Shown one piece after another: positions 16,164 to 40,268 of a DNA stretch of 64,000 nt. Made by a program: the position numbers and the translations under genes. Source of the stretch: Psychrobacter cibarius (GTDB taxonomy: Bacteria > Pseudomonadota > Gammaproteobacteria > Pseudomonadales > Moraxellaceae); NCBI GenBank assembly GCA_030686115.1, contig CP131612.1, forward strand, positions 3,286,001 to 3,350,000. Direction: 5' to 3'. Each line of letters opens with the position of its first letter. Positions within the stretch are counted from its first letter, which is position 1. The notes beneath the pieces were generated by a model. It was not told where the DNA came from. It was given only the letters and a program-made list of their open reading frames with translations, and did not search any database.

Positions 16164-16193
16164 ATCCCCCGCCTAGATAACTAGTCGGGGGAT
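16164..16193 (-). terminator. rrn operon 1 terminator (type I)
   Basis: ATCCCCCGcCTAG / CTAGtCGGGGGAT, a 12-bp stem with one mismatch and an ATAA loop; on the minus strand the GGGGGAT arm runs into TTTTCTTT. Confidence 0.92.
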
Positions 16194-16208
16194 AATCAGG
16201 AATAGAGA

Positions 16209-16322
16209 GCTGACGATGACCTACTCTCACATGGGCGAACCCACACTACCATTGGCGCAATGATGTTTCACTTCTGAGTTCGGGAAGGGATCAGGTGGTG
16301 CCATCATGCTATTGTCGTCAGC
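16209..16322 (-). rRNA. rrf: 5S ribosomal RNA, operon 1
   Basis: On the minus strand it begins GCTGACGACAATAGCATG and ends GAGTAGGTCATCGTCAGC. The two ends pair as helix I, and the bases GGTTCGCCCATGTGAGAGTA are typical of proteobacterial 5S. Ends are set from the helix and may be off by a few bases. Confidence 0.95.
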
Positions 16323-16507
16323 AAAGGGGGTTAGATATGAGTCTGATGTTGTTATTATTGACTTCAAATGTTACTTTTTAGTCGACCAACAGTAACCTAA
16401 CTGAATCAAGGTTAAAGGTGATATCGAAATATTCTCTCGTTTCTATAAGCTTTCGCTTATACAAGATAGATTAATTAGAGCTTTCATACAAACCACTTGG
16501 GTGTTGT

Positions 16508-19370
16508 ATGGTCAAGCCAAACGAGCAATTAGTACAGGTTAGCTACATGCATCGCTGCACTTCCACACCCTGCCTATCAACGTCGTAGTCTTCAACGGCT
16601 CTTTAGGGAAATCTAATCTTGAGGTGGGCTTCCCGCTTAGATGCTTTCAGCGGTTATCCCATCCGAACGTAGCTACCGGGCAATGCCACTGGCGTGACAA
16701 CCCGAACACCAGAGGTTCGTCCACTCTGGTCCTCTCGTACTAGGAGCAGATCCTCTCAAATTTCCAACGCCCACGGTAGATAGGGACCGAACTGTCTCAC
16801 GACGTTCTAAACCCAGCTCGCGTACCTCTTTAAATGGCGAACAGCCATACCCTTAGGACCTGCTTCAGCCCTAGGATGAGATGAGCCGACATCGAGGTGC
16901 CAAACACCGCCGTCGATATGAACTCTTGGGCGGTATCAGCCTGTTATCCCCAGAGTACCTTTTATCCGTTGAGCGATGGCCCTTCCATACAGAACCACCG
17001 GATCACTAAGACCTACTTTCGTACCTGCTCGACTTGTGGGTCTCGCAGTTAAGCGCGCTTTTGCCTTTATACTCTACGACCGATTTCCGACCGGTCTGAG
17101 CGCACCTTCGTACTCCTCCGTTACTCTTTAGGAGGAGACCGCCCCAGTCAAACTACCCACCATACATTGTCCTCGGTATTGTTATACCTGAGTTAGAACC
17201 CCAACATGACCAGGGTGGTATTTCAAGATTGGCTCCACCGAGACTAGCGTCTCGGCTTCAAAGCCTCCCACCTATCCTGCACAAGTCAGGTCAAAGTTCA
17301 ATGTAAAGCTGTAGTAAAGGTTCACGGGGTCTTTCCGTCTAGCCGCGGGTACACAGCATCTTCACTGCGATTTCGATTTCACTGAGTCTCTGCTGGAGAC
17401 AGCGCTGCCATCATTATGTCATTCGTGCAGGTCGGAACTTACCCGACAAGGAATTTCGCTACCTTAGGACCGTTATAGTTACGGCCGCCGTTTACTGGGG
17501 CTTCGATCAAGAGCTTCGCTTACGCTAACCCCATCAATTAACCTTCCAGCACCGGGCAGACATCACACCCTATACGTCCACTTTCGTGTTTGCAGAGTGC
17601 TGTGTTTTTAATAAACAGTTGCAGCAGCCTGGTATCTGCGACTGCCAACAGCTCAAGGAGCGTGTCCTATCACCATCAGCAGCGTACCTTCTCCCGAAGT
17701 TACGGTACCATTTTGCCTAGTTCCTTCAGCAGAGTTCTCTCAAGCGCCTTGGTATTCTCTACCTGATCACCTGTGTCGGTTTAGGGTACGATTCGTTTAT
17801 AACTATTGCTTAGAAGCTTTTCCTGGAAGCATGGTATTTGCCACTTCACTGTACAAGTACAGCTTGCTATCAGATCTCAGCCATATAACAACCCGGATTT
17901 ACCTAAGTTGTAAGCCTACATCCTTTCACCTGGACAACCAACGCCAGGCTGACATAACCTTCTCCGTCCCTCCATCGCATTATAAACAAGTATCGGAATA
18001 TTAACCGATTTCCCATCGACTACGCCTTTCGGCCTCGCCTTAGGGGTCGACTCACCCAGCCCCGATTAACGTTGGACTGGAACCCTTGATCTTCCGGCGT
18101 GCGAGCTTTTCACTCGCATTATCGTTACTCACGTCAGCATTCGCTCTTGTGATACCTCCAGCATGCCTTACGACACACCTTCACAGGCTTACACAACGCT
18201 CCCCTACCACTTGAAAACAAATTCAAATCCGCAGCTTCGGCTCCTAGTTTGAGCCCCGTTACATCTTCCGCGCGGGCCGACTCGACTAGTGAGCTATTAC
18301 GCTTTCTTTAAAGGATGGCTGCTTCTAAGCCAACCTCCTAGCTGTCTATGCCTTCCCACCTCGTTTCCCACTTAACTAGGAATTTGGGGCCTTAGCTGGC
18401 GGTCTGGGTTGTTTCCCTCTCCACAATGGACGTTAGCACCCACTGTGTGTCTCCCGGATATCACTCATCGGTATTCGGAGTTTGCATCGGTTTGGTAAGT
18501 CGGTATGACCCCCTAGCCGAAACAGTGCTCTACCCCCAATGGTGTTCGTCCGAGGCGCTACCTAAATAGCTTTCGGGGAGAACCAGCTATCACCGAGTTT
18601 GATTAGCCTTTCACCCCTATCCACAAGTCATCCCCTGGCTTTTCAACGACAGTGGGTTCGGTCCTCCGGTGCCTGTTACGGCACTTTCAACCTGCTCATG
18701 GATAGATCACTCGGTTTCGGGTCTATACCCTGCAACTATGGCGCCCTATTAAGACTCGGTTTCCCTACGGCTCCCCTAAACGGTTAACCTTGCTACAGAA
18801 TATAAGTCGCTGACCCATTATACAAAAGGTACGCGGTCACCCTAATAAATTAAGGCTCCCACTGCTTGTACGCACACGGTTTCAGGTTCTATTTCACTCC
18901 CCTCACAGGGGTTCTTTTCGCCTTTCCCTCACGGTACTGGTTCACTATCGGTCAGTCAGGAGTATTTAGCCTTGGAGGATGGTCCCCCCATCTTCAAACA
19001 GGATTTCTCGTGCCCCGCTCTACTTAATATGTTAACGCTAATGTTTCGAATACAGGACTATCACCTACTACGGTCAGCTTTCCCACGCTGTTCTTCTACA
19101 TTAGCATTAATCGGCTTCTCCCCGTTCGCTCGCCGCTACTAGGGGAATCTCATTTGATGTCTATTCCTAAGGGTACTGAGATGTTTCACTTCCCCTCGTT
19201 CGCTTCTTGTACAAGTACAAGATACCTACCTTATGGTAGGTGGGTTTCCCCATTCAGAAATCTCCGGATCACAGGATATTGCCGCCTCCCCGAAGCTTAT
19301 CGCAGGCTGTCACGTCTTTCATCGCCTCTGACTGCCAAGGCATCCACCATGTGCGCTTCATTACTTGACC
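16508..19370 (-). rRNA. rrl: 23S ribosomal RNA, operon 1
   Basis: The minus strand starts GGTCAAGTAATGAAGCGCAC and has GGTGGATGCC soon after, as in E. coli 23S. The 3' end GGCTTGACCAT pairs with the 5' end as the terminal helix. Universal blocks such as the peptidyl-transferase and sarcin-ricin regions read through intact. About 2863 nt, with no large insertion. The terminal helix is extended by flanking GGGGTTGTAT and ATACAACACC, the RNase III stalk. Confidence 0.96.
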
Positions 19371-38110: not shown

Positions 38111-38187
38111 TGGTGGGTCTAAGTGGACTTGAACCACTGACCCCCGCGTTATCAACACGGTGCTCTAACCAGCTGAGCTACAGACCC
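38111..38187 (-). tRNA. tRNA-Ile (GAT), operon 4
   Basis: Sequence as in operon 1, CCA encoded. Confidence 0.97.
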
Positions 38188-38262
38188 AATTACGCTTGTT
38201 AAAACGTAAGCTTAAACTAAAGAACAACTTGTTGTGAATTCTTGCTGACCGAATGCCATCTA

Positions 38263-39801
38263 TAAGGAGGTGATCCAGCCGCAGGTTCCCCTACGGCTAC
38301 CTTGTTACGACTTCACCCCAGTCATCAACCACACCGTGGTGAACGCTCCCCCGAAGGTTAAGCTATCCACTTCTGGTGCAATCAACTCCCATGGTGTGAC
38401 GGGCGGTGTGTACAAGGCCCGGGAACGTATTCACCGCGGCATTCTGATCCGCGATTACTAGCGATTCCTACTTCATGGAGTCGAGTTGCAGACTCCAATC
38501 TGGACTACGATAGGCTTTTTGAGATTCGCATCACATCGCTGTGTAGCTGCCCTCTGTACCTACCATTGTAGCACGTGTGTAGCCCTGGTCGTAAGGGCCA
38601 TGATGACTTGACGTCGTCCCCGCCTTCCTCCAGTTTGTCACTGGCAGTATCCTTAGAGTTCCCGGCTTAACCCGCTGGTAACTAAGGACAAGGGTTGCGC
38701 TCGTTGCGGGACTTAACCCAACATCTCACGACACGAGCTGACGACAGCCATGCAGCACCTGTATTCTAATTCCCGAAGGCACTCCCGCATCTCTGCAGGA
38801 TTCTAGATATGTCAAGACCAGGTAAGGTTCTTCGCGTTGCATCGAATTAAACCACATGCTCCACCGCTTGTGCGGGCCCCCGTCAATTCATTTGAGTTTT
38901 AACCTTGCGGCCGTACTCCCCAGGCGGTCTACTTATTGCGTTAGCTGCGTCACTAAGTCCTCAAGGGACCCAACGACTAGTAGACATCGTTTACGGCGTG
39001 GACTACCAGGGTATCTAATCCTGTTTGCTACCCACGCTTTCGAGCCTCAGTGTCAGTATTATGCCAGAAGGCTGCCTTCGCCATCGGTATTCCTCCAGAT
39101 CTCTACGCATTTCACCGCTACACCTGGAATTCTACCTTCCTCTCACATACTCTAGCTCTACAGTTTCAGATGCAGTTCCCAGGTTAAGCCCGGGGATTTC
39201 ACATCTGACTTATAGAGCCACCTACGCTCCCTTTACGCCCAGTAATTCCGATTAACGCTTGCACCCTCTGTATTACCGCGGCTGCTGGCACAGAGTTAGC
39301 CGGTGCTTATTCTGCAGCTAATGTCATCGTCCATGGGTATTAACCATGGAGTCTTCTTCACTGCTTAAAGTGCTTTACAACCAAAAGGCCTTCTTCACAC
39401 ACGCGGCATGGCTGGATCAGGGTTTCCCCCATTGTCCAATATTCCCCACTGCTGCCTCCCGTAGGAGTCCGGGCCGTGTCTCAGTCCCGGTGTGGCTGAT
39501 CATCCTCTCAGACCAGCTACAGATCGTCGCCATGGTAGGCCTTTACCCCACCATCTAGCTAATCCGACTTAGGCTCATCTAATAGCGAGAGCAGTAAACT
39601 GCCCCCTTTCTCCCGTAGGTCGTATGCGGTATTAATACGAGTTTCCCCGTGCTATCCCCCACTACTAGGTAGATTCCTAAGTATTACTCACCCGTCCGCC
39701 GCTCGTCAGCGAGAAGCAAGCTTCTCCTGTTACCGCTCGACTTGCATGTGTTAAGCCTGCCGCCAGCGTTCAATCTGAGCCATGATCAAACTCTTCAGTT
39801 T
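38263..39801 (-). rRNA. rrs: 16S ribosomal RNA, operon 4
   Basis: Same length as the other copies; no difference noticed. Confidence 0.97.
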
Positions 39802-40240
39802 AATCTTGCTATGAAGCTCTTTAAAGAAGCTTCTAAACTTGGCTCATCTAATCTGGCAAAATCGCTAAAAATTATGTTCGTAATGAATTAACTTTGAGTT
39901 TTTCTGCTGTCTTAAATGATAATTTTTATAGTTAGAATGAACTCCGAAAAGGAGTTAAAACCAACTTTATTTTTTAGCATTCTGAATCAGCAAAAATCCA
40001 CACAAGTTGTTCTTTAGTTATGCTTTTAAATAGTGCTCAATCACTGTCGTCCAGTAACTGATATATAGGGTAATTCTATTGCTATTTAGCCTTAATCCCT
40101 TACGGGTCAAGCTATCTAGCGAGCCGACTATCTTATCATAATGATTTGATTTGTCAAGCTTTTTTATGTTTTGTCTTAGCTTGGTAATCTAAGTAATAAG
40201 TTGGTTAACTTACTGCTTAGCTTCCTTTGCTGTGGGGCGT

Positions 40241-40268
40241 ATTATATAGATTCTGACGAGAGTGTCAA
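40241..40268 (-). promoter_or_regulatory. rrn operon 4 promoter
   Basis: TTGACA and TATAAT with the operon 2/3 spacer. The homology to the other upstream regions ends about 75 bases beyond (near 40340), which marks the outer edge of the array. Confidence 0.88.

Follow-up and report, generated by a model that had tools for sequence, protein, structure and literature searches.

Introduction

Tandem ribosomal RNA (rRNA) operons are already known in bacteria. Bacillus subtilis carries the rrnI-rrnH-rrnG and rrnJ-rrnW clusters (PMC3405057), and inverting rrnI-H-G against the replication fork was reported to be harmful in rich medium (PMC12448304). In wild-type B. subtilis, but not in a recA mutant, polymerase chain reaction (PCR) detected a duplicated segment that lies between two rrn clusters (PMC8266666), so recombination between rrn clusters does occur elsewhere. 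Here we describe an array of four complete rRNA (rrn) operons in a 64,000-nucleotide stretch (the window) of the Psychrobacter cibarius chromosome (GenBank assembly GCA_030686115.1, contig CP131612.1, positions 3,286,001 to 3,350,000). What seems to be new is a variable, genus-wide site in Psychrobacter that holds up to four such units.

The B. subtilis clusters resemble the Psychrobacter array in that several rRNA operons are grouped near the origin. However, they have at most three units, belong to another phylum and have other gene neighbours, and the duplication involved a segment of ~60 kb between clusters and not single units (PMC8266666). The rrn plasmids of Persicobacteraceae carry two or three tandem operons which, all but one, have the same 16S-Ile-Ala-23S-5S order, yet these lie on a small plasmid in bacteria with no chromosomal rrn at all (PMC10645730). 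In Vibrio alginolyticus, adjacent rRNA operons are likewise on a gammaproteobacterial chromosome, but as pairs inferred in three regions, not as one array of four (PMC10956519). The Bacillus anthracis deletions DelGH and DelFG are similar in that unequal crossing over between direct-repeat rRNA operons was inferred from genome comparison; they lose the genes between operons, and an array of adjacent operons is not the subject there (PMC6208641). These comparisons draw on parts of the cited texts.

Eukaryotic ribosomal DNA (rDNA) arrays consist of hundreds of tandem units and show concerted evolution and unequal exchange. Unlike them, the Psychrobacter array keeps a set of bacterial promoters in each unit, and in place of many units with a homogeneous spacer it has four units with three differing spacers. 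Four in a row exceeds the tandem systems cited above, and a genus-wide site of one to four units was not found in the open-licence literature searched. By title and beginning of abstract, none of the papers found under the name Psychrobacter deals with a tandem array in that genus, although a mention elsewhere in the texts is possible. The available parts of PMC6002687 and PMC4494060 contain no tandem rRNA array (the word 'tandem' is absent from the former, and the latter has a tandem array of other genes).

We consider, with a probability of about 0.86, that this is a genuine array whose place near the origin (thrS - rrn array - UPF0227 gene - parE) is fixed in most of the genus sampled and whose size has been changed by homologous recombination between its copies.

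Four complete operons in direct tandem

Rfam models found four full-length 16S, four full-length 23S and four 5S genes in the window, all on the minus strand, and ARAGORN found a tRNA-Ile(GAT)/tRNA-Ala(TGC) pair in each of the four units. The order 16S-tRNA-Ile-tRNA-Ala-23S-5S is repeated head to tail four times, with 16S starts offset by 6152, 6037 and 6120 bp in transcription order. There is no open reading frame (ORF) of at least 100 amino acids within 16052-40828, and none of at least 80 amino acids in the three array spacers. The locus is, therefore, a run of adjacent, complete, same-strand operons without a protein gene between them. This agrees with the initial annotation, made from the letters alone, which had described four complete minus-strand operons in direct tandem, each with a promoter and a terminator, at offsets of 6120, 6037 and 6152 bp and with no other gene between. 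The units (from Rfam, ARAGORN, the promoter scan and folding) and the spacers are as follows.

34467..40268, minus strand: rrn unit 1, first transcribed; P1 40268-40241, P2 40157-40130, 16S 38263-39801, tRNA-Ile 38111-38187, tRNA-Ala 38026-38101, 23S 34817-37679, 5S 34515-34629, terminator 34467-34504; 23S-5S spacer type A
33650..34514, minus strand: spacer 1, 865 bp; terminator, 275-bp middle segment, 535-bp promoter-leader of unit 2
28308..34116, minus strand: rrn unit 2; P1 34116-34089, P2 34005-33978, 16S 32111-33649, tRNA-Ile 31959-32035, tRNA-Ala 31874-31949, 23S 28665-31527, 5S 28365-28479, terminator 28308-28361; 23S-5S spacer type B
27613..28364, minus strand: spacer 2, 752 bp; terminator, 163-bp middle segment of a different type, promoter-leader of unit 3
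22273..28078, minus strand: rrn unit 3; P1 28078-28051, P2 27967-27940, 16S 26074-27612, tRNA-Ile 25922-25998, tRNA-Ala 25837-25912, 23S 22628-25490, 5S 22326-22440, terminator 22273-22318; 23S-5S spacer type A
21493..22325, minus strand: spacer 3, 833 bp; terminator typed like that of dispersed operon D2, 243-bp middle segment, promoter-leader of unit 4
16150..21959, minus strand: rrn unit 4; P1 21959-21932 (core unlike units 1-3), P2 21848-21821, 16S 19954-21492, tRNA-Ile 19802-19878, tRNA-Ala 19717-19792, 23S 16508-19370, 5S 16208-16322, terminator 16150-16206 (core stem 16164-16193); 23S-5S spacer type B

In every unit P1 is a 12/12 match to TTGACA-N16-TATAAT, and P2 lies 111 bp after P1 with 10 or 11 of 12 consensus matches. 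Promoter-like sites overall were no commoner than in shuffled sequences (15 versus a mean of 17.8, and 20 versus 18.9), and we therefore place weight on the perfect P1 score that recurs at an equivalent position in all units. After every 5S gene there is a GC-rich hairpin of -22.9 to -37.0 kcal/mol (folding of 59-nt pieces); these hairpins are known from folding, as the terminator scan recorded no operon terminator in the window. Judged from sequence, each operon is predicted to have its own promoter and terminator. The limits that the initial annotation had set for the array correspond to this structure: 40268 is the first base of the unit 1 -35 box, and 16164 is, in the fold, the far base of the unit 4 core terminator stem.

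Differences between the units

The 16S, the internal transcribed spacer (ITS) and the 23S are identical across all four units. From 16S to 5S the units differ solely in the 23S-5S spacer, by 15 alignment columns; this spacer is of one type (A) in units 1 and 3 and of the other (B) in units 2 and 4. The terminators are distributed differently: units 1 and 4 share one type (its stem is also found at dispersed operon D1), unit 2 has a second, and unit 3 has a third, also found at D2. Unit 4 has its own P1 core, which makes two P1 cores in the array. The three spacers are 83.7-88.7% identical to one another over aligned columns. Such a mosaic of spacer, terminator and promoter types is at odds with one simple block duplication, and fits repeated short exchanges. 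The 16S and 23S of both dispersed operons are 100% identical to the array copies, indicating that homogenisation extends past the array.

Identity of 16S, ITS and 23S in all four units is the setting in which assemblers err, and the array is known from an assembly, not from reads; it could in principle be an artefact, with fewer real units expanded by the assembler from a collapsed repeat. The initial annotation had argued from the differing spacers that the array is not one copy repeated in this way, and the argument holds: the spacers and terminators are each of three kinds, and the 23S-5S spacers and P1 cores each of two. In addition, the assembly of another species, G075, has counterparts to two of the spacers, with identities of 95% and 87% over the longer length (the compared genomes are given G numbers, G000 being the window's own), and tandem arrays occupy the same site in 20 other genomes. 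From these sequences an assembler repeat is unlikely, and we regard this explanation as having very little chance of being correct.

Both dispersed operons share a P1 core and an upstream element carried by no array unit of the genome, which gives two rRNA promoter families. The best match to the 45-base element upstream of the G000 dispersed operons among all array units fetched was 28/45, so none of them carries it; the element is also weak (27/45) at one of the two dispersed operons of G051.

A conserved site near the origin

The assembly comprises 3,430,886 bp in two contigs, of which contig 1 has 3,425,040 bp. Besides the four 16S genes of the array there are two others, at 777722 (plus strand) and 3117350 (minus strand) of contig 1, making six in the genome. 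As dnaA is at base 22 of contig 1, the array, on the minus strand before the contig end, is 99-123 kb from the origin inferred from dnaA (the contig taken as circular), and all six rrn operons are directed away from that origin. The array is thus near the origin and co-directional with replication. When six operons were placed at random, four fell within the observed 18309-bp span in 9 of 2,000,000 placements, under a null that ignores the duplication origin of tandem copies. The genes that define the site are:

40828..42762, plus strand: thrS, threonyl-tRNA synthetase (Pfam: TGS, tRNA_SAD, synthetase core and anticodon-binding domains); upstream neighbour of the array, divergent
13410-14051, minus strand: UPF0227 gene (Pfam), which we take to be yqiA-like; downstream neighbour of the array
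11407-13293, minus strand: gyrase B family gene (Pfam), read as parE, presumably correctly, from its order with the yqiA-like gene plus a separate gyrB near dnaA; downstream neighbour of the array

By thrS, which matches five named Psychrobacter contigs, the genome probably belongs to that genus; the best named match is a contig labelled P. immobilis 1617 (99%). We compared this site within a genus sample of 105 genomes, including the window's own (three without a match are not listed). The 16S search was run on the 27 listed relatives with at most eight contigs. G015, G029, G082 and G100, with operons at contig ends or an operon number that seemed collapsed or unclear, were excluded from the copy-number count, leaving 23 relatives and G000 as a resolved set of 24 genomes, one per species. 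A single unit occupies the site in 3 of these (G026, G027 and G055); 11 genomes have two units there, 6 have three and 4 (G000, G051, G075 and G102) have four, i.e. at least two in 21 of the 24. parE lies downstream in all 24 and the UPF0227 gene is present in 21 of the 24 fetched stretches. Within the ~3.4 kb fetched upstream, thrS was found in 20 genomes and not seen in G102, G044, G046 and G055; the G055 site was placed by parE alone. With contigs treated as circular, the distance between gyrB and the array or single unit is 65-192 kb in the 23 relatives.

Exactly two rrn operons lie outside the site in 23 of the 24 genomes (G055 has three), so nearly all operon-number variation among the 24 genomes is at this one site. 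Their totals range from 3 to 6 operons. For Psychrobacter sp. G, the part of PMC3778199 available gives 12 rRNA operons; given the totals above, perhaps 12 rRNA genes were meant.

Some single sites deserve separate mention. In G075 a degenerate 5S (84.5%) lies ~210 bp past the last unit (G075:C1:600300-630400), perhaps a remnant of a lost unit, and the thrS adjoining the array, ~74% identical to that of G000, has perhaps been replaced. Pairwise comparison of the three units of the G001 array (G001:C1:1413900-1437400) gives 289-342 mismatches and 239-260 gap columns in ~5.05 kb. The five 16S genes of this genome match the query at 89-96%, and the model score falls sharply in two of the three scored copies. 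This divergence may reflect unpolished repeats in a long-read assembly or real heterogeneity.

Copy-number change on the parE tree

On a parE tree of 28 genomes, of which 24 were labelled with copy number, at least 10 copy-number changes are needed. G075 (four units), G000 (four) and G019 (two) form a well-supported group in which G019 is the nearest relative of G000, the parE of the two being 97.7% identical. Similarly, G049 (two units) and G051 (four) are a close pair (support 91/84). The prediction of the initial annotation that a tandem array should be prone to copy-number change is thus supported at the level of species.

Spacers as a probable record of recombination

Within several arrays the spacers are identical: all three in G102, and both in G065, G052 and G002. 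This pattern is that expected of recent unequal crossing over and would fit it, though assembly miscount is also possible there. The G051 spacers follow the order A-C-A, in which the first and third agree (833/834) and the second differs. The counterparts mentioned above are spacer 1 of G000 and spacer 3 of G075 (95%), and spacer 2 of G000 and spacer 2 of G075 (87%). The modules common to these two genomes look older than the species split, with their order changed. In 19 of 21 arrays, no two units are more than 13 mismatches apart.

In two relatives an array spacer contains a gene that elsewhere flanks dispersed operons. The 2807-bp spacer of the G006 array includes a gene which, we assume, encodes a TRAP-type solute-binding protein. 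Its relatives (76-79%) are found downstream of a dispersed operon in G000, G051, G055, G072 and G090, with two copies each in G072 and G090, and G006 itself retains a second copy, 81% identical, beside a dispersed operon. No match to it was found in G044, G046 or G010, and in G001 the matching genes (58-64%) have no operon next to them. In the G046 array, spacer 2 contains a presumably methyltransferase-like gene, which was matched once in every one of the 10 genomes searched; in the 9 genomes other than G046, the distance from this gene to the nearer end of a dispersed operon's 16S is 5.0-9.4 kb. The presence of dispersed-operon flank genes inside these two arrays indicates that array spacers acquired flanks of other rRNA operons. 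Such uptake fits recombination between operons. Taken as sequence patterns, the identical and reordered spacers and the flank genes within arrays point to homologous recombination.

It could be argued that the extra units were imported from other lineages, by transformation or a mobile element, and not duplicated internally. Spacers 1 and 2 of G075 stand apart from the rest, as does the promoter-leader of the G049 spacer, and the difference in G075 between thrS (~74% identical) and the UPF0227 protein (99.5%) suggests that foreign DNA may enter beside the array. However, the absence of any ORF of at least 80 amino acids from the G000 spacers leaves no sign of an intact mobile-element gene (no search aimed at mobile elements was made), and both the few mismatches between units in 19 of 21 arrays and the equality of G000 16S and 23S with the dispersed copies favour internal copying or complete homogenisation. 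Of the alternatives considered, import seems to us the least probable.

A number of points weigh against a history of change by recombination between copies. No two spacers of G000 are identical, so its array shows no very recent amplification. The only spacer of G019 is 78% identical to its best G000 match, below the values for G075, and spacer history, therefore, does not simply track the parE tree. G075 is itself listed as 85% complete and 3% contaminated. Two arrays depart from the near identity of units, namely G044 (up to 24 mismatches and 259 gap columns) and G001 (see above). Support is good for only 12 of the 25 inner branches of the parE tree, and the copy-number labels on this tree are slightly clustered, with 13 changes (unresolved genomes forming a class of their own) versus a shuffled mean of 15.4, a value as low being reached in 5 of 200 shuffles. 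Copy number is thus partly inherited. The comparisons are all between species, one genome each, and give no rate of change; copy number is known from assemblies alone, where arrays with identical spacers could conceal miscounts and two-unit arrays such as that of G019 could be collapsed.

Some of these observations would also be expected if the array were static, inherited at a species-specific size held by dosage selection with little ongoing recombination. The slight clustering on the tree, the conservation of the site through the genus sample and the two spacer types common to two species, which make parts of the array old, are all in line with this. A static array is, however, difficult to reconcile with the different copy numbers of close relatives (G000 and G075 versus G019; G051 versus G049) and the at least 10 changes on the tree, and with the arrays that have identical spacers and the different spacer order in G000 and G075. 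We find a static array improbable, though somewhat less so than an artefact or import, and favour a fixed-site array resized by homologous recombination.

Possible mechanism and implications

The units amount to ~5.3 kb of nearly identical DNA in direct repeat, and would be a substrate for homologous recombination, probably dependent on RecA. Unequal crossing over could gain or lose whole unit-plus-spacer modules, so that copy number may vary even within a strain. Exchange with the dispersed operons would homogenise the rRNA and occasionally give the array a flank from another operon. A likely consequence is an adjustable rRNA gene dosage near the origin, where replication would raise the dosage further and transcription would run with the fork; this dosage may be beneficial to the cell. 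A bolder possibility is that the thrS-parE array acts as the genus's copy-number dial, with practically all Psychrobacter operon-number variation located there, cells of one culture differing in number, and selection by growth rate or temperature shifting the number reversibly. We hold this extension to be doubtful, though not as improbable as the alternatives discussed above.

Operon number is linked to growth strategy, and how this number changes can seldom be seen, as operons lie scattered and are collapsed in draft assemblies. In Psychrobacter one site varies and two other operons are constant in 23 of 24 genomes, so that the gain, loss and homogenisation of such operons can be counted and tested within a single genus. 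The results also suggest that Psychrobacter draft assemblies undercount rRNA operons, in which case 16S-based abundance corrections need complete genomes.

rRNA operons outside the genus

For background we used family, order and class samples of 41, 58 and 59 genomes (G000 being in each), mostly drafts, with the best 16S candidates scored in each genome (at most 9, 6 and 6, respectively). Outside the genus, 16 genomes show at least two full-length 16S genes, and 14 of these have no tandem pair, in line with the premise of the initial annotation that bacterial rRNA operons are usually dispersed. One tandem pair each was found in G114 (offset 6616) and G250 (offset 5621). Three in a row occurred in none of the 16 genomes, a small sample of low power, and so we make no claim of rarity past it.

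Other genes of the window

The segment between unit 4 and the UPF0227 gene, and a region further from the array, contain the following.

14530..16052, minus strand: two ORFs (231 and 248 amino acids), neither with a Pfam or PADLOC match
51314-59686: Na+-translocating NADH:quinone reductase genes

Among the fetched flanks of other genomes, these ORFs recur in G089 alone, where they have the same position and identities of 75% and 99%. The reductase region encodes NqrA, an NQR2/RnfD/RnfE family protein and a protein with Fer2, FAD- and NAD-binding domains, together with an ApbE-family gene, and is ordinary.

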